Part shown: positions 3,201 through 35,900 of the stretch, piece after piece
Layout of the letters: each line of letters starts with the position of its first letter
How positions within the stretch are numbered: position 1 is the first letter of the stretch
Assembly: GCA_021292105.1 (NCBI GenBank)
Contig: CM037867.1
Span: forward strand, 16,134,928 to 16,198,927
Source of the DNA: Anadara kagoshimensis
Lineage: Eukaryota; Mollusca; Bivalvia; Arcoida; Arcidae
Direction of reading: 5' to 3'
Length of the DNA stretch: 64,000 nt
Notes under the pieces: generated by a model
Database searches by the model: none
The model's input: the letters and a program-made list of their open reading frames with translations, nothing else
Told to the model about the DNA's origin: nothing
Made by a program: the position numbers and the translations under genes

Positions 3201-6200
3201 CCATGTGAGCGAACTACAAATTTTTGCCACCTATAGCTGATGACGCCTCAATATACGTGAAATATTCTTGACTGGGACATAAAACTGCATTCAATCAATT
3301 AATCAATCTTTCCTACATTAGGATAAGTATGGATAAGTTTTTCTTGTCTTGTCTTTTGTCGCCAGTTTATCAGTAGCCCTTAGTTACGTATGATTAAGAG
3401 TTGTTGCATGACGTTATTTAACGCGGTATTTTTGTACATTTAATGACCTTGTATCCAACCATAGCATGCTCTGATCATATGGCGAGAAACATGGCCTGTT
3501 ATACATGTATATGGTGGTTATATGTGCCTGTTTGCCATTTTTTTCAAAAACATTTCAAAGTTTTGGGATTGTGATAGCTTAAAATGCCGAACTAAAAGAA
3601 CAGTCAATCAACAAGGATAAATTAATCAAAGTTGTGTTCATTTAACGTTTTTGATAGGTAAAAACAGAAGGGATGCATTAATAACTGTAAATACTTGTTT
3701 ATTTCATAAGATGGCTTCACTTGGACGGATGACACACCTATTGACTTTCTGAACTGGAGCCCTCACGAACCTTCCGATCCAATGAACTCAACTACTGAAG
3801 AGTGTATTGAAATGTTTACTGGTACTGGAAAATGGAATGACGTCTCGTGTTTTGTTAATCGTGGATACATATGCAAAGGTCTAGCAGGTATGAAATACTA
3901 GATTTTAGATAATGAAACAAACTCGTCATAGTTTCGTCATCGGTCGAAATAGCCGTGTTTTGTTTTGGTTTTGGTCATGCTTTAATAAAGAATAAACGAT
4001 AACCGTCTTGGTGTTGCAAACAACTGTAGTCGCAAAAGTCTAAATGTGTGTAGCACTAAAGACTATAGATTTTAATAAAACAATTAACCTCTTTGTAGAA
4101 TACCATAACAATGAAAAGATCTGTGTATTTTCTCTTTGGCCATGCTGTTATTTAGGATAAACAATAAAGAAAATTGTGTTGGTGTTACAAACAAACGTGT
4201 ATATACCCACAAAGGTCTCGCAACTAGCTAAACAGGAGGTGCCTGCCCTTCCGTAGCACCTGGTCTCACTTCGCTTGTGGAAGTTCAGGTGTCAGTTTTA
4301 AAGTTTTTACTGTTTCTGGATTGTGATTAAGACATGTATTAGTATGTTTATTAGTGTGTTTGTTGATTTTATTTCTCTTTGGCCATATTCGTATATCGGA
4401 TAAACAAGAACGAAAACCGTGCTGGTGTTGCAAATAACTATGTTTATTATACCGTATGAGAAAAATATGATACTATTTGTAATTTGAATGGATCGTTGGA
4501 TCATGTTATCAGGGTGGAGAAAACATTGTGTTTCCCGCTGACGTCATCGATGGAGAATCTGTCACGGCGTTCTAGCATTTGCGATAGGAGAAAAGGCAAT
4601 GAATCGTAGGACTGATGTTTTCAGTCTGCCTTTTTTAAAATATGTTTTCTTTCTGTCTGTCTTTCTAATAACCATGGTTATCTTTCGGTATAATAAACAA
4701 TTCATTGCCTCACGCAAAGGCAATACATGTATAATGTAGGCGCAAATGTCTAGCTGGTGTGTAGCACTAAGAAACAATAAAGCTCTTTATAAAACACTGT
4801 CAAAATATCGGAATGGTCCTTTTTTAAACTTCTTTCAAAACCAAATGCAAATCTGCAGCACTGAAACTTTTGGTGTGATAACGCATCAAAATCTTAGAAA
4901 ATATCGTTTCCATAGAAACCCATGAAACGAAATAAAACAATTTGTAACTGAAACAGCTTGTATTAAAAAAGACAAATCAACCGATCGCACGAACGAAATA
5001 AGAAATTGTATGAAAATACAGTTCCCAGTGGTTTTGATAATCATAGAAGAATTGGCAATTAGAAAATGGTACTTGGCAAATATCAAAGTTTTGTTAAAAC
5101 TAAAACGCATTTCAGTTGTTATATGTGTACTTAGATCCTTCAAATCCTTGCATGAAAAATAAATAAAATGTGATCGGTCTCCAAAACAGATTAATGAGTT
5201 AAACTACTGGTGAAATTAAGAGATGTCAGAATAATCTGTTGAAAAATAGCAAAACAACAAAAGACTTATATTTCATTAACACACTACATTCAAACCTGTC
5301 TTTAAGGTCACTTGTATGTAAGGGTCATCTGCCCATAATGGTTAGAAAAATGTAATCCCAATTGTCCTTTTTTTGTGATTTGAACCTGTATATAAGGGTA
5401 ACCTGCCCACAAAGACCACTTTTACTGATGCCCTTGGGTGACCTTTATAGACAGGTTTGTCTATACTTCAATCAAAAGCAAATATACCAGTCAATGTCCA
5501 AATCACGAACCCAAAACCAAAGCAAAATGTTGCAAAGTTAATTAAGTATATTGTGATTTTCCATCAGGGAAGTGAGAAAGGGGTGCTCTGCAAATGTAGG
5601 AACCTCCTGTCTAGCTAGCTACACCTTCCACGCGTGGAATCAAAATTGCGAAACAAAGGAACATGAAACTCTATGACGTAACATATATACATACATGTAA
5701 TAATTTTGGATACGAATACTCGTATTTATCAACAATATTGTGATGACGACCATTACACTTCTTTGAAAGCCGTAATAAGTCTGGCCTTGCAATACATCGA
5801 TACGTGGAATCGGACTAGTGTACAGACAGTTCTATTGAATACAAAACTAAATGATTTTGAATTTTATAATTTTATATTGATGCAATTTCAGCCAATCTTA
5901 CAACAACCGCCGCTACAATGACTATACCAAACAAACAATGGTCTGCTACTACAGGATCTAAACAGACAACTCCAAGGGGTATTATAGACCCTTTTACTCC
6001 ATTAATTCCTCCTACTGGCCCCACAACTCCAAATCCAATTCCAAACATACCAGGTGTTTCAAATTACAATGGCGGGAAAGCAACAGGTAAGTGCACTTTC
6101 AATCAGTACAAATATGATCCGAGCTAAATAAAGGCCGAACTTTTAGAATAAAGTTTTGTCCTTTGTATATTTTTTCAACGCCTAAAAAAATTTGGTTTAA

Positions 6201-8064
6201 CAACTTTGATCCAAGCATTACTGATGAGGAATTGTATTCCGAAACGGTTGTCTAGTTAAAGTTAAAGTCTGTCCCGAGCCATTAGGCCCATCAGGCCGGA
6301 GCTTATCCCGGTTTCGGTGGCGTTAAGCGACTGAGAGTACAAGACTCTCCCCTGAATGGGACGCCGGTCCATCGCAGGGTTAACCCCCAGCATTTTGCTG
6401 GTACTCATTTATTTTTCAGCTGAGTGAACTGGAACAACGTGAAATTAAGTGTCTTGTTCAAGGACACAACACATCGCCCGGTCCAGGGATCGAACCCACG
6501 ACCTTCGAATCATGAGTCCAATGCCTTAACCACTAGGCCACGCGTTTCCACAAAACGGTTGTCTAGCGTTGTTGAATTAACACTGGTATAATAATATTAC
6601 TATAGTATATAATTTTGGTAAACTCCATTGAAAACATATTCAATCAAAATTTCGATCTTGGTGAATCGTACGTATGATCGTATTGAATGAGCTTTGATGA
6701 TTTCGAACTTGCTCATTCAAATCAAGATTAAACAAAAATCAATTAACCGTCTCTATTTTGATGCGTTTCACACTTATAGTCCAACAACATCGGTCTGTCC
6801 GCTTGACCTTTCATAAGGAATATTCATATAGGAGAATTCATCCATTATATGGGTAGTATAAGGTTTAGCAGACCATACTTAATCATTTTTGTTACTCATT
6901 ATGTAGACGAAATAAACACGTGCGTCCCCTATACATAAATAGACTCGTTCATGATAAATATTTAAATTAAAGGTCAAACGGTTAGGTCAGTGTTATTTGT
7001 TTTTACCAGTAGTTAACGACACTTTTTCAATATTTCAATTGATTTTATAAATGCGATTCCGTTCATTTGTGTATTTTCAAAACACAGAAACAACTAATTT
7101 ATTACTTACTGTCTAAATAATCTGTCAGTTAAAATATGAAAATCCTCAAAAACTAAAGTATATTCCCTCATGCAAAGTATTTCCTTAGTTTTTGGTTAAA
7201 TATGTTTTGGTCTTTTTGGATATCTTTTTCAACCCCTTGAAAAATTTTGGTTTTACACTTGGTTTTGTCCAAGCACTACTGATGAGGAATTGTATTCTAA
7301 AACGACCGTATAGTGCTGTAAAAAGAATCCTGGTATAACATGTATTTAAGCAGTTTTTTCCATCATAATGTTTTTCGTTTGTAGTAGGACATGCGCATAT
7401 ATGGCCGAAGTATTTAAATACCAGGCTAGCACTGTTTTTGACCGCCTATGTTTGAATCCCTATCGTCCAGAGTGTGAAAGTTTGTTCGTTCATTTGTCAG
7501 CCGCTGATGGTAAACTCGCATTGCCCTTACTGCCAAAGTTCAAATCGTTGTAGAACAATATGAAAATTTCGCAGTTCGTTTGTCGAACGCCCTAACTAGC
7601 TAAGTTTGAATTCATTATCGGCCAGTGTGAGGAAGCTTGTCAGTTCGTTTGTCAAAACTCGATGGTTAGCTCACATTGCCCTCACTGCCTGGATTCGAAT
7701 CCTTATAGGCCAATGTAAAAAAATGTCTGCTAGTCTGAGTTCCCAAGTCCATAACAGTAGAAAGAACCTCAATTGTTGGCATCCAACCATTACTGCATCA
7801 TACTGCTCTTATTTTTGTATCTTTGTTTTATTAGCTTCAACATCTAACCTATCAACTGGAGGAATAGTGGCCATATTGGTTTCAGTGGTTTTTGTGTTGG
7901 TGATCATTGGACTGGCGGCCATATTTATCAAAAGACGGTCTAGCGGAGCCGGAAGTGGCTTAGGTGTTGGCGGGATAGATAATTCTTTGTACTATGAAAA
8001 ACATAATGAGCAAGTTAACATTTCAAACGGGAACTCAATTGTTAGTCATGAAGAGGATGCTTAA
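181..8064 (+). CDS. Transmembrane C-type lectin-domain receptor, 3' part (7 exons)
   Basis: The gene is cut at its 5' side by the window edge. Exons 181-298, 1195-1433, 2111-2273, 2665-2940, 3711-3887, 5892-6086 and 7835-8064 all have AG/GT borders and join in phase. The product contains the end of one C-type lectin-like domain (CTLD), two complete CTLDs, a Pro/Thr-rich stalk, one transmembrane helix and a cytoplasmic tail of about 50 residues. Mannose-receptor-like and other multi-CTLD membrane proteins in molluscs have this plan and are usually assigned to recognition of glycans or microbes at the cell surface; that role is family knowledge here. The penultimate CTLD has QPV where EPN/QPD would bind calcium and sugar, but the last one keeps E-P and W-N-D. 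Domain borders lie at phase-1 introns, as expected for shuffled modules. The signal peptide and any further CTLDs must lie upstream of the window. Confidence 0.85.
1195..1433 (+). CDS. Lectin receptor exon: N-terminal half of the second visible CTLD
   Basis: The acceptor is 'atttactag'; the phase-1 join gives V-S-G-L-P-I-A-T-P-P. The peptide then reads C-K-S-G-Y ... C-Y-K-M-Y, W-Q-T-A-A-T-N-C and ends V-W-L-G-M, the usual first half of a CTLD with its WLGM-type core strand. It ends in phase 0 at AAG|GTATGT. Confidence 0.85.
1741..1780. repeat. CT-rich microsatellite in an intron
   Basis: An interrupted run of TC dinucleotides inside the intron between the first two complete lectin exons. Confidence 0.6.
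2111..2273 (+). CDS. Lectin receptor exon: C-terminal half of the second visible CTLD
   Basis: It begins in phase 0 with GTYTWLDGWP and contains NWGSGQPV, then GGCVAM, MWSDQNC and FVCKI. Disulphide cysteines are all present. The Ca/sugar site is atypical: QPV replaces EPN or QPD, and WSD replaces WND, so classic calcium-dependent sugar binding by this domain is doubtful. It ends in phase 1 at CTG|GTAAGT. Confidence 0.85.
2665..2940 (+). CDS. Lectin receptor exon: linker and N-terminal half of the last CTLD
   Basis: The acceptor is 'cttcatag'. The peptide opens with a proline-rich linker ATPPPPTSPPPGT, then C-P-K-G ... Y-C-Y-Q, S-W-P-E-A-N-Y-M-C, L-L-S-I-H-S and F-W-I-G-M. Unlike the preceding CTLD, the intron that splits the domain is in phase 1 rather than phase 0, so the two modules are not a very recent duplication. 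Confidence 0.85.
2991..3305 (+). mobile_element. SINE family A (tRNA-headed)
   Basis: A degraded tRNA head has the B-box-like 'agttcgaaccctggtcgg'. The body contains 'tctgaccaagacttgaaaat', 'tgttctttcgccaa', 'cagggtccttctgaagagac' and a tail 'attcttgactgggac' ... 'attcaatcaattaatcaatc'. The same body recurs at least ten times in the window. It lies in an intron of the lectin gene. Confidence 0.75.
3711..3887 (+). CDS. Lectin receptor exon: C-terminal half of the last CTLD
   Basis: It contains DGFTWTDDTPIDFLNW, then PHEPSDPMN, CIEMF, KWNDVSC and GYICKG. The E-P-S and W-N-D residues are close to the mannose-type EPN...WND calcium site, so this is the domain most likely to bind sugar. It ends GCAG|GTATGA in phase 1. 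Confidence 0.85.
3968..4440 (+). repeat. Three imperfect intronic repeats
   Basis: The pattern 'gg.catgct...aataaaca...accgt..tggtgttgcaaa' recurs near 3968, 4133 and 4375. The spacing (about 165 and 240 bases) is irregular. No coding sense; family unknown. Confidence 0.4.
4222..4350 (+). repeat. Interspersed repeat matching the mariner insertion site at 9.7 kb
   Basis: It shares 'agctaaacaggaggtgc' and 'gattgtgatt' ... 'attagtatgttt' with 9668-9732. At the second site a mariner is inserted at the TA; here the TA is empty (4343-4344). An inverted partial copy, 'cctcctgtctagctagct', lies near 5605. Confidence 0.5.
5291..5459. mobile_element. MITE with CAAACCTGTCT inverted ends
   Basis: The left end CAAACCTGTCTTTAAGG and the right end CCTTTATAGACAGGTTTG are inverted copies. 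The interior carries 'gcccacaaagaccactttta' and 'cccttgggtgacctttat'. Related pieces are at 8263, 18661, 21391 and 34003. Intronic in the lectin gene. Confidence 0.6.
5892..6086 (+). CDS. Lectin receptor exon: Pro/Thr-rich stalk
   Basis: The acceptor is 'caatttcag', the donor ACAG|GTAAGT, phase 1 on both sides. The 65-residue segment is rich in Pro, Thr and Asn (for example PFTPLIPPTGPTTPNPIPN) without cysteines, which suits an extended, probably O-glycosylated stalk between the lectin domains and the membrane. Confidence 0.75.
6214..6255 (+). ncRNA. Hammerhead ribozyme motif, core intact but split by a SINE
   Basis: CTGATGA (6221-6227) is followed by a perfect 5-bp stem II GGAAT/ATTCC with loop TGT, then GAAA (6241-6244), a short stem III region CGGTTG and cleavage triplet GTC before TAG. 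All core residues of a type I hammerhead are present. Stem I is imperfect, and its 3' strand continues only after the SINE at 6256-6552. It lies in the last intron of the lectin gene. Confidence 0.65.
6256..6552 (-). mobile_element. tRNA-derived SINE, full length, with target duplication
   Basis: Read on the minus strand, it starts with a tRNA head: A box TGGCCTAGTGG and B box GGTTCGATCCC, about 35 bases apart. A central domain ('gaccggcgtcccattcaggg') and a TTTAACTTTAAC tail follow. The 14-bp direct repeat AAACGGTTGTCTAG flanks it (6242-6255 and 6553-6566). It is a different family from the other SINEs here. Confidence 0.85.
6781..6840 (+). repeat. Solo end of the ACAACATTGACCTGTCC MITE
   Basis: 'acaacatcggtctgtccgct' followed by 'tgacctttcataaggaatat' matches the terminal sequence of the complete element at 10946-11118 and the end at 53034. 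Confidence 0.45.
7100..7340 (+). mobile_element. Short interspersed element ending in a hammerhead, copy 2
   Basis: It shares an approximately 240-base body with the copies at 63606 and 37740: 'cctcaaaaactaa', 'catgcaaagta', 'ccttagtttttggtt', then the hammerhead region. No ORF. Family comparison suggests a non-autonomous, retrozyme-like element; that assignment is inference. Confidence 0.55.
7272..7317 (+). ncRNA. Hammerhead ribozyme motif, probably inactive
   Basis: Stem I is perfect over 7 bp (AGCACTA 7272-7278 with TAGTGCT 7311-7317). The core is CTGATGA, stem II GGAAT/ATTCT. The invariant G of GAAA is A here (AAAA, 7299-7302), which should abolish cleavage. Confidence 0.65.
7835..8064 (+). 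CDS. Lectin receptor last exon: transmembrane helix and cytoplasmic tail
   Basis: The acceptor 'ttttattag' joins in phase 1. A hydrophobic stretch of about 22 residues (IVAILVSVVFVLVIIGLAA) is followed by the stop-transfer cluster KRR, a Gly/Ser-rich patch and a tail containing NSLYYEKHNEQVN, ending EEDA before TAA. This fixes a type I single-pass topology. The tail tyrosines do not match an ITIM or ITAM. Confidence 0.85.
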
Positions 8065-25683: not shown

Positions 25684-26184
25684 ACAGTGCATAAAGGCTA
25701 TTTTGAACATGGAATATTGTAAATTACATTTTACTAAAGAATTGCTTGGACAAATTAACAGTGCATATTTATTCATTATTCAGAGACCTAAGTAAAAAGT
25801 ATATTTTTGTCAATGCTGCATGTTTTGGTTAACGTCTGTATATAGAAAAAAAAATCATATTTGTATTCCAGCTATCCATTTGGGCCCCAAATTACAAATG
25901 AATGTATCTTTTACCCGTGTGATTGAATCAAGACATTCACACCTGGACGACCTACATATAACCAATGAGGTACCCATTAGGAGTATTAACCATTTTGATT
26001 TTATTGAAAAACGGTTGCAAAAATGATGGTATGGACACACTCACATAAACTGATTTAAAAGAAAACTTTTTTTTCACTTAGGTCTCTCTTTTCTGTGTTG
26101 AAATATTATTAAAATGTTAACAAAAGATAAAAATAAAAATGTAATCGCAATATATGCATGTTCAAAATAGCCTTTATGCACAGT
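25684..26184. mobile_element. 501-bp foldback element
   Basis: Ends ACAGTGCATAAAGGCTATTT and, on the other strand, ACTGTGCATAAAGGCTATTT match over 28 bases with one difference. Pairing resumes at AGAGACCTAAGT (about 25783) and ACTTAGGTCTCT (about 26078). The arms are therefore about 120 bp with a diverged middle. The interior has a 68-codon ORF but no recognised domain. Confidence 0.65.
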
Positions 26185-26189
26185 AGTGC

Positions 26190-27740
26190 ACCCATCTAAA
26201 ACATCTTTGGTGGTTCACCTAATGAGGGTGGGAACTACAAAACGGAATAGCACTGTAAACAACTCTTTTGAAAAGGAGTCATGTAAATTCAATGGCAATG
26301 TGGAACTTGCGAACATGTGGAAATAGAACTGAAGCATAAACTTTATAGTGAGTAGAGGGTCATATAAACCCAATTCATTAATGGCGATCTAAACGTCATT
26401 TTAACTAGCTGATACGGTAAACACAGTTAAAACGAAACAATTATTACAGGTAATTAAATGCTCCGACTGTAGAATAATAAATTCTCAACTACTATTTAGG
26501 CGACTAAATCCCCATTTTATTTTTGTCTTGTTGGTGTTTGTGGTGGAACCAACCTAAACCAAGCACCTTAAGCAAGACCATAACCTGGAACATAAGGATC
26601 TACATCGGTAGATGAAGTTTTCACTCTTGACGATTATGCAACATAACGCACTAACATGTGGTGCTGATCATTAGAGGAGGATAGAAAATTGGAAATTTAG
26701 AAACAGTTTTAAAGAAGAAAGAAAGATAAACGATAGAATTCTAGCTGTGATTTTTCACCCCATCAGCCCAAGCCTACCTGGCTTGGATGTTCCATGTAAT
26801 GATCTATCCCTACACCTCAACCGCAGTTCTCTACACAAGAAAATGATAACTTTGTCTTCCTGTTTTGTGTGGTTGAATATCAGTGCATCTGTATTTATAA
26901 GAGATGCTATGTACTTGGCACCAAAACCAGAATTTTTGCAATTACATTTTGACAAAATCTAGGATGGCATCTTACAAATATTGAAAAAATCTATTTGACA
27001 CTTGGCTGAGTGTAAATACCTTTACAAAAATCTGATATATCACAATTGTCAGGTCTGGGATCCGCCCGAAACGGGGATAAATGGAAATCGCCCGATCGGG
27101 GGATAAAGCGTCTAAGCATTTTTATGACTATAACATCGCACATGCGTATTTCATTTGTTTGTCTAGAAACGGGCTTAAAATCGAGTAAAATTGATGACCT
27201 CTTATAAAAACAGCCACGGGGATTCATTTGTAAGTAGGGGACTTAAAAATTTTAACACTTACAATAAACTTATATTTCTAAAGATCTGTCGTGCGGAAAA
27301 AAGTTATAAGCTCTTTAAAATGCACTTCTGGTTATAAATGGTCCAATTAAAAATACATCGTAGTTACGGGTATAGAAATGCTAAAAGGACGGTTTCTTAC
27401 CTAGTTCAGATGTGTGTTAACCAACTCTTTGAAGATGTATTTTTTTTTATTTTCTGTCTGAATTTCGTCCGTCCCCCCCACCCCCCACCCCAATTAAATA
27501 CCAAAATGTTTTTCAAAGAACTTTGACCAATCTACATATTCTTCATGAAATAACTTGCAATTGTTCAGGATAAAATGTCCAGGTTGTGTCAGAACTTGTA
27601 ATCTGTTGTTAAGTCAGGTGAAAAGCTTGTAAATATGTAGCTAATAATAGTATATGTTTCAATTCTCAATCCAATGCTACAATATACTAACTAAGCTTTT
27701 AGTGACAATTAGATTTTTCAGTTTTTACCCGTGTATATGC
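26190..27740. other. No supported feature
   Basis: AT-rich sequence with a C-rich tract at about 27474-27491. Overlapping ORFs of 66-78 codons on both strands near 26750-27227 show no domain, no splice context and no repeat relationship. Confidence 0.5.
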
Positions 27741-27753
27741 AGCTATAGCTGTA

Positions 27754-27818
27754 ACCATACTACAATAAAAAGGTATCAAAATATCTGAAGATGTTGGTGT
27801 TCGTCCTAATTATTACTT
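27754..27818 (+). repeat. Left 65-bp terminal direct repeat of the Penelope-like element
   Basis: It begins ACCATACTACAATAAAAAGG and ends CCTAATTATTACTT; it is identical base for base to 31639-31703. Six extra bases (GCTGTA) lie between the target repeat and this copy. Confidence 0.85.
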
Positions 27819-28013
27819 GTATTTAATACCACATACACCTGCATCCGTGCGGATCCATCTAAAGATATTTTCAACACCACTCCATCCACCTTACGGCGTT
27901 GGAACTTTTCACCACCACCTCTCCTAGTATACTTACCAAAGTTCCGGTATCCTTGTGATCCGCCTTTCCTACCTTAGATCCTAACAACAGGACACGCCAG
28001 GAATATACACAAC

Positions 28014-28625
28014 ATGGAACACTTTCAGGACCCAATCGAAACCACCTCCTCTAATAACCAAGATCAACCAACTAAAAGAAAGAGAACTAATACCAGTGAA
28101 GCACCATTCCAACCTAACACCGCTTCACCACCTAACACCACCGCCTCTACATCCGATGCCACCGCCTCCAATTTCAAAACCAACACCGCCAACCGTATAC
28201 AGGATTCCAATATGGCATACTTTAGAGCATATAGAAAACTCAGTATTGACAAAGTCAAAGCAACCAAACACATATCTTACCTCCATGATTGCATACAGCA
28301 GGACACAATCCCTAAAGGACTCAAGGTCAGAGTAACACCGCAAATCCCAAGTAAACCATTACCATTTCTAGTTAAATGGGAACTAACCCACATCGAATTC
28401 TACAGGAACCTCAGAAACCAACTACATCAATATTGGATTGATAAAGCCGCAGAAACAGAAAAAGAACTCCTCAGTATAGAGACAATCCTTAAAAACAACA
28501 CCACTCAGGAAGAATTCACACATATCGATAGAATTATTGAGAAGAACATACAAGAATACCAAACAGCCAATACTAAATCCGATGCCGCGCAACAGAAGGT
28601 TCAAAAGACCCAAAACACCCAATAA
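28014..28625 (+). CDS. Penelope-like element ORF1 protein
   Basis: The 203-residue protein opens with a low-complexity Ser/Thr/Asn/Pro region with a basic patch (TKRKRT, a possible nuclear signal). From about residue 70 it changes to a helical, charged region (YRKLSIDKVKATKHISYLHD ... WELTHIEFYRNLRNQLHQYW) and ends in likely coiled coil. I recognise no catalytic domain. By position it could be an RNA-binding or multimerising partner of the ORF2 enzyme. Its stop overlaps the ORF2 start by 44 bases in another frame. Confidence 0.65.
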   Translation: MEHFQDPIETTSSNNQDQPTKRKRTNTSEAPFQPNTASPPNTTASTSDATASNFKTNTANRIQDSNMAYFRAYRKLSIDKVKATKHISYLHDCIQQDTIPKGLKVRVTPQIPSKPLPFLVKWELTHIEFYRNLRNQLHQYWIDKAAETEKELLSIETILKNNTTQEEFTHIDRIIEKNIQEYQTANTKSDAAQQKVQKTQNTQ

Positions 28626-30732
28626 TGCAGTCGTTAATCTCACAGATACACCACTTACTAACAATGAATTTCAAATACTATCTTATGGACTCAACTTCGC
28701 CATACACCGCCCAACAATTAATCCCATTGAACTTGATACTTGTACTCGCATTTTCAACCGCAGGCTATGAATCATCCATTTTTTTAGGAACCATCCAACC
28801 CAACATTCTACTGATCCACTAACAAGCCTTAAACCCACATCCGGGTGGACACCACCACCAACACAAAACATTACATTTGAATCCTATATTCACACAACAA
28901 CAGAACTCATCAGACGCTCACCCAAATCACAACCACCTTCAAAAAACAACATCCAGCCTGAATTACTTACCGCCCTACATAACCTTAGTGAAAGGAAAGA
29001 TATTGTTATCAAACCCGCAGATAAAGGAGGAGCCATAGTTATTTGGAAAACAAGCGATTACATTAGAGAAGCCAACAAACAACTCAACAACCATAACCAC
29101 TATGAGAAATTAGAAAGAGACATAACATCCACCACCGTGAATCAAGTCAAAAACTTTATCCAAACCTGCCAAAAAAGAAACTTGCTATCCAGCGATGCCA
29201 ATAAATACCTGTTGCCACACCATACCATTACACCCCACCTGTACTTATTACCAAAGATTCACAAACAGGGATGCCCTGGCAGACCCATAGTATCCGCCAC
29301 CAACGGACCCACATCCAGAATATCCAAATACGTCGATTTATTCCTAAGACCACTAGTTCAAGAAACCCCATCATTCATCCAGGATACCACAGACTTCTTG
29401 TGCAAATTAAAGAAAATTGGCAAAATACCTTTAACCAGTTATATTGGAACCATAGATGTATCTTCACTATATACCTCCATACCTCACAAAGAAGGCCTAT
29501 TAGCATGTAAACAAGCACTAGATAACCGCACCGAATTATCACCACCCACCTGGATTCTTTTAAGAATGATCCACTTAGTCCTCACCACCAACAGCTTCGA
29601 ATTCAACGATAAATTTTACCTACAGAAACAAGGATGCGCCATGGGCACCGCATTAGCACCGCAGTACGCAAATCTGTTTATGACCCACATTATAGAATCT
29701 ACAATCAACAAAAACCACACCCTACTTCCTAGTACATGGTACCGATACATAGACGATATATTCTTTATATGGGACCACTCCGAAGAAGAACTTATACAAT
29801 TCTTGGAGGGACTCAACAACCTTCACCAAACCATTAAATTTACGTTTGAATATAGCAAACAAAATATCAACTTCCTAGACACCACCGTCTATAAAAACAC
29901 CGATGGAACTCTACTCACCAAATTATACACCAAACCCACCGATGCCCACCTATACCTACATTATAAATCCAGCCACCCACTAAACCAAAAACGAAGCATC
30001 CCATACAGCCAAGCACTCAGGATAAGAAGAATATGCTCAACACTGCCGGATTTTGACTCGGCAAGCTCCCGTATGTGCACCGCATTTTTAAACAGAGGAT
30101 ACCCGAAAAAGCTAGTCCTAGACGCAATAGCAAAAGCCAGAGTATTGGACCGAGACGTCCTCCTCACCCCTTCGAAATCAAATACTAAGGAAGTCATCCC
30201 ATTCATTATCCCATTCCATCCAAACTTAGGAAAGATAAACCGCATATTAAACACCCAACGATATCTACTGTCCGGAAACGAAGAATGCAAAATTTTTCAT
30301 GACAAAAGATTTACCGTAGCATTCCAAAGAACAAGAAACATACGCAATATGTTGGTAAGGGGAAAGATTAACACCATTATAAAAACACCGGGAAGCCGCC
30401 CATGCAACAACATTTGCGCCACTTGCCCGTTCATGAAAACCACTAAAACATTCACCAGTTCAACCACCAACAAAACATACAAGATAACCAGTCATATCAA
30501 CTGTCAAACAACGAATGTGATTTACCTAATTCAATGTAATAAATGCACCGCCCAATATGTTGGACAAACCTCGAATAACATTATCACCCGCTTCCGCACC
30601 CACTTCTATGATATAAGGCACCAAGACGCGCTCAAACCCGTATCCAAACACTTCACCACAAATGGCCACACAATTGATGACGTCACAATCATTGGCATCA
30701 CCAAGACCACCGCAAAAACAACTACCGTTTGA
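28582..30732 (+). pseudogene. Penelope-like reverse transcriptase with GIY-YIG endonuclease (one in-frame stop)
   Basis: Read from ATG 28582, the frame is open to 30732 except for TGA at 28768-28770, in FNRRL-stop-IIHFF. A CGA-to-TGA change at a CpG would explain it. Domains in order: N-terminal VVNLTDTPLTNNEFQILS; KPADKGGAIVIW; reverse-transcriptase blocks LLPKIHKQGCPGRPIVS, GTIDVSSLYTSIP, QGCAMGTALAPQYAN and the catalytic YIDDIF; a Cys-rich linker CNNICATC; and the endonuclease NVIYLIQCNKCTAQYVGQTS with R-x-R-T-H downstream. Length is about 716 codons. The family copies its RNA at nicked chromosomal DNA. From the ATG-rich sequence after 28770 a shorter protein with the whole RT core could still be made. 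The linker cysteines suggest a Neptune- or Nematis-like clade; that is tentative. Confidence 0.9.
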
Positions 30733-30806
30733 GACTCGAGGAATCGTGGATACACGAGCTGCAAACCCACGAACCACTTGGCTTAAATCTGAAACAGTAA
30801 ACCACC

Positions 30807-31418
30807 ATGGCCCGAACAAAAACTACTCAGAGGAAAATCAGTACAACAACAACCAGCAACAAGATTCCATGTGATAAATGCCACCGCCAATTTAGCAGAA
30901 TCCAGTCACTCAAAAGACACTACCAATCCAAGCACAATGCCATCATTACTCAGTATGAATGCACAGAATGTTTCGCCACTTTCGGCAGAAAAGACATCGC
31001 CAGAAGACATCTGAAAAACGTTCACAACAATTTAGACATAAAATTAGATACTTTCCAAACCACCATCTATACGTATGCAGATGTACCGGATAAATGGACA
31101 CCACCTTTTGAGAGCACCCCTAAGAAGAGGAAAACCATAAAAAAAGCAACAACGGATGTCACAACCATACCCAAATTCAGGATTGTTCCGGGTAATAACA
31201 TCCCGTATGTACCAACCACTCAGCCAAGTAAAAGCTTATCATCATCATCAACCTCAACCATCAGCACCGTACATGAACCACCAACTAACACTTTCAATTT
31301 ACTCATAGAAGATCTACAACTTTCAGAATCCGACAGTGGAACCACCATTTCCAGCACCACCTCAGAACCCAATGGATGGATCGATCCCCAAGATTGGATT
31401 ATCATTGATGAATGCTAG
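30807..31418 (+). CDS. Penelope-like element ORF3: histone H3 tail-like N-terminus plus two C2H2 zinc fingers
   Basis: The ORF starts 74 bases after ORF2 at ATG in an excellent context (ACCACCATGG) and encodes 203 residues. The first residues are M-ARTKTTQRKIS. Histone H3 begins (M)-ARTKQTARKST, so 7 of the first 9 residues after Met agree and both K4 and K9 are in register. Two C2H2 fingers follow: C-x2-C-x12-H-x4-H (CDKCHRQF ... HYQSKH) and C-x2-C-x12-H-x4-H (CTECFATF ... HLKNVH). The remainder is Ser/Thr-rich with a basic patch PKKRKTIKK and an acidic, Trp-containing end (NGWIDPQDWIIIDEC). It lies inside the terminal repeats, so it belongs to the element. Canonical animal Penelope elements encode RT and GIY-YIG only. 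A chromatin-contacting role, for example like SNAG-domain zinc-finger proteins that mimic the H3 tail to dock on LSD1, is inference. Confidence 0.8.
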   Translation: MARTKTTQRKISTTTTSNKIPCDKCHRQFSRIQSLKRHYQSKHNAIITQYECTECFATFGRKDIARRHLKNVHNNLDIKLDTFQTTIYTYADVPDKWTPPFESTPKKRKTIKKATTDVTTIPKFRIVPGNNIPYVPTTQPSKSLSSSSTSTISTVHEPPTNTFNLLIEDLQLSESDSGTTISSTTSEPNGWIDPQDWIIIDEC

Positions 31419-31595
31419 TTATCAGTTTAATACAACTTTATGAACACTACTTACACTGATAAGTATAAATATAAGCTTTACGCAAGATAATGTTTTTAAT
31501 TTATTTATTTTCACTTTAATTTCAATTACATGTTTGCTAATTTCGTCGCGATCGCTACACCGCTATTTGTACTTTATGTTGATTTGTATTCACTC

Positions 31596-31637
31596 TTGGT
31601 CCTGATGAAGGCCACCCCAGGCCGAAAGCTTGACCAG
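31596..31637 (+). ncRNA. Hammerhead-like ribozyme fold at the Penelope repeat
   Basis: TTGGTC (31596-31601) pairs with GACCAG (31632-31637) as stem I. The core CTGATGA is followed by a bulged A, a 4-bp stem II (GGCC / GGCC, loop ACCCCA), GAAA and a minimal GCTT in the stem III position. Hammerheads have been described in Penelope-like terminal repeats. The bulged A and one-pair stem III lower confidence in activity. Confidence 0.5.
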
Positions 31638-31638
31638 C

Positions 31639-31703
31639 ACCATACTACAATAAAAAGGTATCAAAATATCTGAAGATGTTGGTGTTCGTCCTAATTATTA
31701 CTT
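31639..31703 (+). repeat. Right 65-bp terminal direct repeat of the Penelope-like element
   Basis: Identical to 27754-27818; starts two bases after the hammerhead-like fold and is followed at once by the AGCTATA duplication. Confidence 0.85.
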
Positions 31704-31710
31704 AGCTATA

Positions 31711-32872
31711 TATCGGAATGTCGGGAGTGTAGGGTAAATCTATATCCTGCTTTTAGTTCCAACATTATTATTTTAAACTGAAGAAGATTTGTCATTTAGC
31801 CTCCTGTTCTTTATTTCAAACAAAATAATCATATTTACTAATAATTAAAAAATAATAATGATAAACAAAAGCGGTATTAACTATTGTGATTGATTGTATC
31901 ATCAAATTAGCTTTGTAGTGACTTGCTTAAAATATTCCGAACTCAGTTTATACTATATACAAAAATTCTTCTAATTATGCAGCATTTACACCAAAAAATA
32001 AAAAGAAGAAAAGTGACAAAATGAATGTCGTCCTCTGATGGAAAATCAAGATAAAATAGTGTATTAAATTCTTTGACTTGGCATGTCACTTATAAGTCTA
32101 TCGATCGGTTGATCAAAGATGAGGCACAAGCTTCGTAATTATCGAAAAGTGCTCATCTGTTTTTACTAGCGTCCAAAGATCTATCGCCCATAATTAATCG
32201 TTCTAAATTACCTGTGTTTATCCGTAAATGCTCTTGGGACACTACACATATGCCGGTCACGGCTTGGTAATCACTCGCTGACAACGTTAATTAATCTCGT
32301 TTAAGGAATAATCCACCTGTAATTAACACCTTCACACGTGGACTTATGTTAATTCAACATCATGACCAAAATAAACACTCATTCGGAACTCACTAGATCG
32401 ATCGTTGACCGAGACGAAAACCTGTTGCTTTAACAACTCAGCTCATGTCTGCAATGCGCAGTGAACCTGTTAATGTAAACATTTTTTTCGCCATCACTTT
32501 TGCCAATGTTTAGTTTTTATTGCCAAATTTATTTATTTTTCTCATTTTGCGAAAAAAGCGAATGGCAGCGTGAACCCTGGATATAGCTTTAAATACATGA
32601 ATTAAGTGCTACAAAACTCTCCTGATCAAAATCCTTAGTATATCAGGATCTGCAGTGGTGTACGCTTACAGTGGTCTGCTGTGCTTTTTTAACGGTCACA
32701 TCATCAGTCATTTATATAACCTATGTTTTTAGTTAATTTTAGATGTATTTTAATCTAATGACTTATTGTTCATGTTGTTTGATTAATTAGCAATTAAAGT
32801 CTATAAGTAACCATGGTGACAGAAGATTGATTAATTGGATATTGAGATGACGCATAACTGATAACTACAGAG
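31711..32872. other. Upstream region of TRUB2
   Basis: No ORF, repeat family or clear TATA/initiator could be identified. It presumably holds the TRUB2 promoter and 5' untranslated region. The bases 'aactacag' directly before the ATG could be a splice acceptor, so an upstream non-coding exon is possible. Confidence 0.4.
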
Positions 32873-32993
32873 ATGGTAGTCCGTTGGGGTCCGAAGGCGT
32901 ACAAGTTGCTAAATGGTGTATTCTGTGTATACAAACCAAGTGGAGTACCTTGCTTTAAGGTTATAGAGACAATACAAAGAAACCTAGCCAAAG
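32873..32993 (+). CDS. TRUB2: TRUB2 exon 1
   Basis: It starts MVVRWGPKAYKLLNGVFCVY, then KPSGVPCFKVIETIQRNLAK, matching the TruB-family opening G-x-x-x-V-x-K-P-x-G. The ATG is the first in frame and has G at +4. It ends AAAG|GTAAAT in phase 1. Confidence 0.85.
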
Positions 32994-35900
32994 GTAAATT
33001 TTATACAACACTTAAATTACTTGTGTTACGCCTCTGAATTTCCTAGGGAACACCACTGTGGTAGCTTAGTTGGTAGAGTAATCACTCTATAAGTGGGATG
33101 TCATGGGTTAGAAACCCGACCGGGTCCGCCTCAAGTTTTAAAAGTTGGTAATGACTGGTTTTTTCCCCAAGGAACCGTTTCTGTACCTTCACATATAGCC
33201 AGCAGCATCCTAATATAAGTGAAATATTCTTGACTAGGACAGTAAATGCCATTACTCAACTCAACTTCCTGGGGAACAAAGGCCCATAATACACAGTGTA
33301 ACACCTCTCCATCAGACACAGTTGTGGGATATCTTCTTGAGCTCTGCCCATGTCTTTCCAGCTGCCCTTGCCTCTATGTCAGTGCTTCTGCACCTAGTCT
33401 GTTTTAGCTCTCTTCTCTTCCTCTTTCATTGTGGATTCCCAGCAGAACCTGCCGGTATTACTATATACATTTGTAATTTAATTCCTTGTTATTAAAAATA
33501 AAAATCAAAGTGTTATTTAACATTGTTCATATATTGCCAAAAGACCCCTATTGTAATCTGTAGCTCAGTAATAGATTGTTTGCTCACTGTTCATTCTAGA
33601 AGAAGCAATGGGGCCATTGACCCCTTAGTTAACCAAATAACCCCATTGTTAGGGCCTAAGTGACTCATGATTAATGTAATGTGAACGCAAAATTATTGAT
33701 GTTATGGTATTTTTATTGGAAACATTTTAAAAATGAACCTCCTGTGAAAAATCTAGGGTTTACATATTTGAGGGTCAGAGTCCAAACTCTAGCTGGGTTC
33801 TGATAGAATAGACTTAAAAATAGATAGTGACTTTCCTTTCATCGATCATTCAACATTTAGAAATAACAGTAATGGGGTCCTTAACAAGAGATTCTTAAAT
33901 ACTGATGCACCATGTCATAACATATATAGCACATTAAAAACCCCTCCCTGTACATTTCCTTTAGTGTACTGCAAAGGTTAAAATTTCTGTCACTTTACCT
34001 TTACCTGTATATAAGGCCCACCTGTCCATAAAGGTCACTTTTACTGACTTTTGGGTGTCCTGTATAGACATGTTTGACTGTACATGTATTTTGTATGTCT
34101 TGTTTCAGATTTAAATGCTCTACCTTGTTACCAACAAGAGAGAATAACAGAAGATAAGGAAACTAAAACACTTGTCTTAAATACACCAGAACCATCAGGC
34201 CTAAGCTTACAGAATCACAGACTAGGTAAGTAGCTTACAGAACCACATGCTAGGTGAGTAGCTTACAGAACCACAGGCTAGGTGAGTAGCTTACAGAACC
34301 ACAGGCTAGGTAAGTAGCTTACAGAACCACAGGCTAGGTCAATAGCTGACAGAATAACAGGCTAGGTCAGTAGCTTACAGAATCACAGGCTAGGTAAGTA
34401 GCTTACAGAACCACAGGCTAGGTGAGTAGCTTACAGAACCACAGGCTAGGTAAGTAGCTTACAGAACCACAGGCTAGGTCAATAGCTGACAGAATAACAG
34501 GCTAGGTCAGTAGCTTACAGAATCACAGGTTAGGTGAGTAGCTTACAGAACCACAGGTTAGGTGAGTAGCTTACAGAACCACAGGCTAGGTATGTAGCTT
34601 ACAGAATCACAGACTAGGTAAGTAGCTTACAGAACCACAGGTTAGGTGAGTAGCTTACAGAACCACAGGCTAGGTCGGTAGCTTACAGAATCACAGACTA
34701 GGTAAATAGCTTACAGAACCACAGGCTAGGTGAGTAGCTTACAGAATCACAGGCTAGGTGAGTAGCTTACAGAATCACAGGCTAGGTCAGTGGCTTACAG
34801 AACCACAGACTAGGTCAGTAGCTTACAGAACCACATGCTAGGTCGGTAGCTTACAGAATCACAGGCTAGGTAGGTAGCTTACAGAACCACAGGCTAGGTG
34901 AGTAGCTTACAGAATCACAGGCTTGGTGAGTAGCTTACAGAATCACAGGCTAGGTGAGTAGCTTACAGAATCACAGGCTAGGTCAATAGCTGACAATAAC
35001 AGGCTAGGTCAGTCAGGCTAGGTCAGTAGCTTACAGAACAACAGGCTAGGTCAGTAGCTTACAGAACAACAGGCTAGGCTAGTTGAGTAGCTTACAGAAT
35101 CACAGGCTAAGTGAGTAGCTTACAGAATTATAGGCTAGGTCAGTAGCTTACAGAATCAAAGGCAAGGTGAGTAGCTTTCAGAATCACAGACTATTTACAA
35201 TTTGAATTGACCTTTTTTAGATGAACCTATTTGTTTTTTCTGGCATTCAATTGCTCTTGAATACATTTTGGGGTCATGACTTCTGATTACGTAACATTTA
35301 ACTATCCGATTACATCACAGAATGTCATCATATAACGTCATGCATTGTTTGATTGGTCAAAATCTAAGTTTAGTCCCGACTAAACTATCCTTATTCGGAG
35401 CAAGGCTGTTCCATCAATCCTATATGTTTGTCAGAATCTTGAATGAAATAAATTATTGTAGCGATAATTTTGCATTTCAGAGTTCACTGAATATGCTATT
35501 CCTGACTCTCATTCATAATACGGTATTACGGAATGAATACGCTCAAATAGAATGTTATTTCTTAATTGAACAAAAATTGATGATCCATAACCATAGAGAC
35601 ATAATCAATTAACTAATTCATTAATAATTTGAAGATTAAAAACTGGGTCTCTTTCCCTTGAAAAAGAGAACTTATTGCTAAAAATCTGATCATAATTGAT
35701 TATGGCTTTTAATCAATCATCGACATATCACTAATGAACAGTCCTCAATTTTGTCTACTAAAATGGTGACCAAAACAACCTGGAATTGTGTCTGGCGACC
35801 TAAAATTTGTAAATGGTGGCCAGCTTATCCACTTTAAATTTGAAATTTTGTGACCAGTGAAAAATGTTATTTCTGCGTCCCAAAATGTTCATGATACTGT

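Follow-up and report, generated by a model that had tools for sequence, protein, structure and literature searches.

Why should a protein encoded by a retroelement begin with the same residues as histone H3? The protein is ORF3, a 203-aa reading frame (30807..31418, + strand) that is intact in the window, the whole 64-kb stretch of DNA analysed here. A preliminary description had assigned it to a Penelope-like element (PLE), and the element at 27754-31703 indeed has the layout of one. ORF1 (203 aa by ORF reading; 28014..28625, +) has no Pfam family above its own cut-off, and it is followed by ORF2 (28771..30800, +; assigned by Pfam and by frame reading), in which a reverse transcriptase (RT) is fused to a C-terminal GIY-YIG endonuclease, as in EN+ PLEs. 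The RVT_1 match lies above its Pfam cut-off (32.4 bits vs 29.6) and the GIY-YIG match slightly under its curated one (21.1 bits vs 22.6), with the motifs YLIQCNKCTAQYVGQTS legible. By repeat comparison, the element carries two 65-bp direct repeats that are 100% identical, the 5' copy at 27754..27818 (+), which is part of a pseudo-LTR, and the 3' copy at 31639..31703 (+). The sequence from 27754 onward recurs after the 3' end of sister copies, in the partly tandem arrangement of PLE terminal repeats. ORF2 of the window copy is damaged by a TGA at 28768 and by a frame break near 30730, which severs the end of the endonuclease and leaves its C-terminus to be read in another frame up to 30800; ORF3 is intact despite this damage.

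Two further observations concern the surroundings of the element. A hammerhead-ribozyme-like core (CTGATGA ... GGCC ... GGCC GAAA) lies at 31598-31639, directly before the 3' 65-bp repeat, and PLEs with hammerheads are already known. Rfam reported no ribozyme at E ≤ 1 over positions 26000-34000 of the window, its sole match there being tRNA-like. This stretch at 33060-33121 falls short of the gathering score (25 bits vs 29) and is perhaps the head of a tRNA-derived SINE.

The start of ORF3 reads MARTKTTQRKIS, with the start codon within ACCACCATGG, just as first described. Its N-terminal tail, delimited by ORF reading and conservation, consists of the start Met and ARTKTTQRK (30807..30836, +). 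Histone H3, whose genes were located and read in the same genome, begins M-ARTKQTARKST and ORF3 M-ARTKTTQRKIS; seven of the first ten residues (1-4, 6, 8 and 9) are identical in exact register, as the preliminary description had claimed. Behind the tail come the two C2H2 fingers that it had also reported, finger 1 (C22, C25, H38, H43; 30870..30935, +) and finger 2 (C52, C55, H68, H73; 30960..31025, +), whose cysteines and histidines occupy invariant alignment columns and which Pfam recognises in two stretches (PF13894, 29.0 bits vs a cut-off of 27). A Pro/Lys-rich middle with the motif KKRK and a Ser/Thr-rich acidic C-terminus complete the protein, which as a whole is T- and K-rich. ORF3 is not itself a histone: no histone fold follows the tail, and among the 20 Pfam families matched at E ≤ 1, zf-C2H2_4 alone passes its cut-off and none is a histone. 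An AlphaFold2 model (mean pLDDT 54.7) places helices in the finger region only, the remainder being of low confidence. Searched by sequence against the PDB, full-length ORF3 matched 110 sequences at E ≤ 10, and the best 60 of the 110 were zinc-finger chains; phmmer with the first 20 residues returned no PDB match, H3 included, which is unsurprising for so short a query. No relative of ORF3 was confirmed in collections of viral contigs and genome contigs, and the tail motif had 8 matches in the viral contigs, with no C2H2 fingers seen before the first stop (≤200 residues).

A single short motif chosen by eye in one copy could resemble H3 by chance. However, when we drew 200,000 random ten-residue sequences from ORF3, the best agreed with H3 at 6 positions (4 draws) and none reached 7, and the probability of the seven-residue motif under ORF3's own composition is 1.25e-8. 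We also scanned the genome (1.115 Gb in 36 contigs) for exact matches to M-A-[R/S]-T-K-x-T-x-[R/S]-K and found 16 sites, namely 12 ORF3 starts and 4 histone H3 genes, against 0 in the reversed control. This pattern covers R or Ser at positions 2 and 8, and it is for that form, which includes the R2 tail, that the motif is known to be rare outside H3. Of the four H3 genes, L042 has a complete frame. In the other three the likeness to H3 ends early, perhaps at introns, about 90 residues in for L045 and about 45 for L050 and L051; H3 arrays may be undercounted because the scan skips very common words. Together with the 23 loci and the codon rates described below, these figures refute a chance likeness, to which we assign practically no probability.

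To find relatives of ORF3 in its own genome, we performed tblastn and obtained 145 matches at E ≤ 1, with 150 of 421 candidates scored; many were ordinary zinc-finger frames aligning to the ORF3 fingers only. Five further loci are 98-99% identical to ORF3 over its full length and free of stops, and one close locus on C14 has stops in that frame. Other families have diverged widely: compared with the window copy, ORF3 is 40% identical in L015 and 31% in L017 and L018, and the RT-endonuclease of the window copy is 51% identical to that of L017 over 450 residues. Residues were counted at 23 loci with a readable start, which are not independent, since one family contributes seven close copies, among them that of the window, and several of the others fall into pairs or fours. 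The count omits L003 (overlaps L002), L010 (5' truncated), L024 (two starts, both decayed), L025, L026 and L028 (match ends short of the start), L027/L065 (tail lost; L065 starts MASKGVAV...) and L062 (decayed; MAQTKFSF followed by a stop). Also omitted are L060, L061 and L068, an outgroup that has no tail.

Across these 23 loci, the start residue is Met in 22 and Ile in 1. K4, R8 and K9 are present in all 23 and T3 and T6 in 22 each; position 1 is A in 20, V in 2 and T in 1, and position 2 is R in 15, K in 7 and N in 1. The other positions are free. Position 5 is T (16), I (6) or R (1) and position 7 is P (15), E (3), Q (2), I (2) or N (1), so that H3's Q5 and A7 occur at 0 of 23 loci, as does its Ser at position 10. 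The window copy has Q7 where all five close sister ORFs have P7, the sole amino-acid change in their first ten residues, and the tail of L014 is eroded (MVNIKRTQRKE). The expectation that related copies would keep A-R-T-K and the start was thus upheld within this one genome, allowing for K at position 2 and the few substitutions of A1. Because K2 occurs in 7 of the 23 and Q5, A7 and S10 in none, the tail is not a faithful copy of H3 beyond the seven shared residues. Because both tail and start are kept across diverged families, the H3-like N-terminus is selected and not a matter of chance. Separately, the tail-less L065 (C16:35787000-35795000, about 5840-6310) holds an ORF3 relative in an open frame of 186 aa, and this 8-kb region gave no match to RT at E ≤ 0.01; the relative may be an old copy or else an exon that has been exapted.

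The codon-rate comparison of tail and remainder that the preliminary description had proposed bears this out. We used nine of the 12 available loci, each standing for a lineage or sub-lineage (although L018 and L021 are close relatives), and dropped L001, which belongs to the same family as L004, and L013 and L014, which are decayed and have less well kept tails. The nine tail codons gave pN 0.159 and pS 0.793 (ratio 0.20), compared with pN 0.500 and pS 0.764 (ratio 0.65) for the linker and pN 0.436 and pS 0.820 (ratio 0.53) for the remainder of the first 80 codons; some of the nine loci are decayed copies, in which changes acquired since insertion act as noise and weaken the signal. When nine-codon windows were slid along the first 88 codons of five families, pN was lowest in the tail (0.169), which ranked first of 74 windows and ahead of all those in the fingers. 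The tail is under purifying selection. ORF3 is therefore a genuine protein that selection maintains in one PLE clade, and the H3-like N-terminus is a selected feature of it: the in-register match to H3 is maintained.

Conservation might instead operate on the RNA, with the stop/start region acting as a reinitiation or RNA-packaging signal and the likeness to H3 arising as a by-product. The junction of ORF2 and ORF3 lends this some plausibility, as the two frames overlap or lie a few bases apart in several families. In the window family, a TAA, six bases and an ATGG follow one another in one frame (30798..30810, +; TAA-ACCACC-ATG), ORF3 starting six bases past the TAA at 30798; the stop and start overlap as TAATG in L019, L020 and L021 and as TGATG in L017/L018, and a few bases separate them in L011 and L015. 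With its start at or next to the ORF2 stop, ORF3 is probably translated by termination-reinitiation. However, synonymous sites of the tail codons are almost saturated (pS 0.79 above and 0.81 in the five-family comparison) while the amino acids are kept. For example, R8 is encoded by AGG, CGC or AGA and T3 by ACA, ACT, ACC or ACG. Because codons at the kept residues vary freely, selection acts on the amino acids, and the RNA-level explanation, largely refuted, is very improbable.

The tail is also fixed to the N-terminus. Its distance to the start Met is constant and no insertion falls inside it, with K4 and K9 at their exact H3 distance from the N-terminus, as had been claimed from the window copy. 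The spacer between K9 and the first finger cysteine, by contrast, varies in length: the window family and L015 have 11 residues there, L018 and L020 have 6. L017/L018 have an extra in-frame ATG immediately upstream, MMAKTK (ATGATGGCT); if this upstream ATG were used, the tail would be buried.

The main rival to mimicry of H3 is that the tail serves as a basic nucleic-acid-binding arm or as part of a nuclear localisation signal, its match to H3 being convergent in charge only. The H3 tail is itself basic and contacts DNA. The invariant residues of the ORF3 tail are K4, R8 and K9, R2 swaps with K, and two fingers of a DNA-binding type come next; several of the residues shared with H3 (K, R, T) are also what one would expect of a basic arm, given how rich the protein is in T and K. 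Such an arm leaves unexplained, however, why the uncharged T3, T6 and A1 are kept nearly as strictly as the charges and why the motif is tied to the N-terminus when its distance to the fingers varies. The KKRK elsewhere in ORF3 could supply a nuclear signal, and the finger ORFs of sister elements lack the tail. We regard the basic arm or nuclear signal as unlikely, though deserving of more weight than the other rivals.

These sister elements are three PLEs of the same genome (L060, L061 and L068) in which an ORF with two C2H2 fingers lies downstream of the endonuclease. Their finger ORFs start MAPYKKC... or MAPTTKC..., L068 and one of two L061 stretches have a break in the finger frame, and the RT of L060 is 37% identical to that of L017 over 432 residues. 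At four more outgroup places, L069, L070, L071 and L072, a C2H2 pattern search of about 1.3 kb past the endonuclease found no finger. Because the sisters have fingers without the tail, the fingers appear to be older than the tail, or else the tail was lost in the sister group. Within the tail-bearing group itself, some old relatives no longer have the tail (L065, L062 and both starts in L024) or carry it in eroded form (L014), which weighs against mimicry.

Two structural variants were also seen in the genome. One is a derivative of the L017/L018-type element, present at G000:C16:10343705-10344397, C14:71581459-71582151, C19:56071017-56071709 and other places like these. Of the RT query it retains only the initial 86-133 residues, and ORF3 residues from 86-99 to 244 come directly after them; it forms a 281-aa open frame at the three named places, has neither the H3-like tail nor the fingers, and accounts for 22 matches at 94-97% identity in the ORF3 search, many of them adjoining an RT piece. 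The other is an inverted pair of copies with ORF3 pointing outward on both strands, found at L017 (C15:59519500-59525000) and L056 (C5:22818000-22827500).

What would such a tail do? From the pattern of conservation we infer binding to a host protein, a type of receptor and a purpose. Methionine aminopeptidase removes Met before small residues such as Ala, Thr and Val, and the start Met of ORF3, followed by one of these three, would be removed to expose [A]-[R/K]-T-K-[T/I]-T-x-R-K. The two fingers would hold element or target DNA or RNA, and the free tail may enter a host pocket that grips the unmodified or modified H3 N-terminus, much as the SNAG tail of Snail1 enters LSD1. ORF3 would then bridge the nucleic acid of the element to a host chromatin complex, tethering the retrotransposition complex to chromatin or diverting the complex from silencing the element. 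We consider it somewhat probable that ORF3 is an N-terminus-anchored H3-tail mimic that docks a nucleic-acid-bound protein on such a complex. A more specific version, to which we give slightly less than even weight, is that this clade evolved a DNA- or RNA-bound substitute H3 tail: a free A-R-T-K...R-K carried on fingers may present the element as an unmodified nucleosome tip to the H3-reading machinery, and so help it to select the chromatin into which it inserts or keep H3K4 erasers stalled on its own copies.

The candidate contacts of a pocket for the H3 N-tail are the kept set, that is, a small first residue, R/K2, T3, K4, T6, R8 and K9. Because T3, K4, T6, R8 and K9 are conserved, a pocket for residues 1-9 of the type that LSD1 uses for H3 and SNAG would fit. 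An LSD1-type pocket is the single most likely receptor, with perhaps a quarter of our expectation resting on it and most of the rest shared by other H3(1-9) pockets. The preliminary description had proposed a mimic for readers, writers and erasers of K4 and K9; the H3-like N-terminus stood, and "K4 and K9 readers" proved too broad. HP1 chromodomains need A7 and the residues flanking K9, and we set aside an HP1-type K9 reader, position 7 being free and position 10 never Ser. We likewise set aside a WDR5-type pocket, as WDR5 needs Arg at R2, which K replaces in some families. The N-terminus could otherwise be a substrate of H3-tail enzymes, for example haspin, which phosphorylates T3, or a methyltransferase acting on K4, that switch ORF3 through the cell-cycle or chromatin machinery. 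The kept A-R/K-T-K-x-T does include the modifiable T3 and K4, but the strict conservation of R8 and K9 would need a further reason, and R2 to K may weaken substrates of this type; we hold this to be improbable, though less remote than an RNA signal. If the tail is instead an H3-tail mimic, it would be a natural variation experiment on H3 residues for its receptor, with T3, K4, T6, R8 and K9 kept and positions 5, 7 and 10 free. To our knowledge, how PLEs choose targets and coexist with host chromatin is largely open, and the tail offers a ready peptide and a hypothesis on this relation.

Among PLEs, a family-specific extra ORF is also found in the bdelloid Athena elements and Terminons, whose ORF3s are DEDDy or GDSL enzymes, in contrast to the finger ORF3 described here; the words "zinc" and "histone" are absent from the main text of that report (PMC5408684). 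Closer to hand, L060, L061 and L068 have the two-C2H2 ORF in common with ORF3 but not the H3-like tail. Among the open-access titles and abstract beginnings listed, none describes an H3-like tail in a protein of a PLE or other transposable element, which is not proof of novelty. The nearest functional parallel is with the SNAG repressors (Snail1, Gfi1 and INSM1, acting with LSD1-CoREST), which like ORF3 combine a free, H3-like N-terminal tail and C2H2 fingers in one protein. SNAG (P-R-S-F-L-V-R-K) resembles H3 more in shape than in letters, and its consensus has a hydrophobic residue at the place of K4. The Snail1 tail resembles that of ORF3 in its small first residue, Arg at position 2 and later Arg-Lys, and the residues described as crucial for binding LSD1 (Pro2, Arg3, Ser4, Phe5, Arg8 and Lys9) are the counterpart of the A1-R2-T3-K4...R8-K9 kept in ORF3; H3 and SNAG peptides hamper the Snail1-LSD1 complex (PMC4237825). 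Members of the Snail superfamily have at least four fingers (PMC4237825), whereas ORF3 has two. Unlike SNAG, ORF3 is encoded by a retroelement and keeps H3's own T3, K4 and T6, with K4 at 23 of 23 loci in place of a hydrophobic residue. Short copies of a histone tail in otherwise unrelated proteins are also known from the histone mimics influenza NS1 (ARSK), G9a (ARKT) and EZHIP (an "oncohistone mimic"), which in this respect are like ORF3. Those mimics lie inside or at the end of the protein, whereas the tail of ORF3 sits at the N-terminus with exactly the spacing of H3 and belongs to a transposable-element protein; if a retroelement protein does carry a selected copy of the H3 N-terminus, histone mimicry would reach beyond viruses and host repressors to transposable elements.
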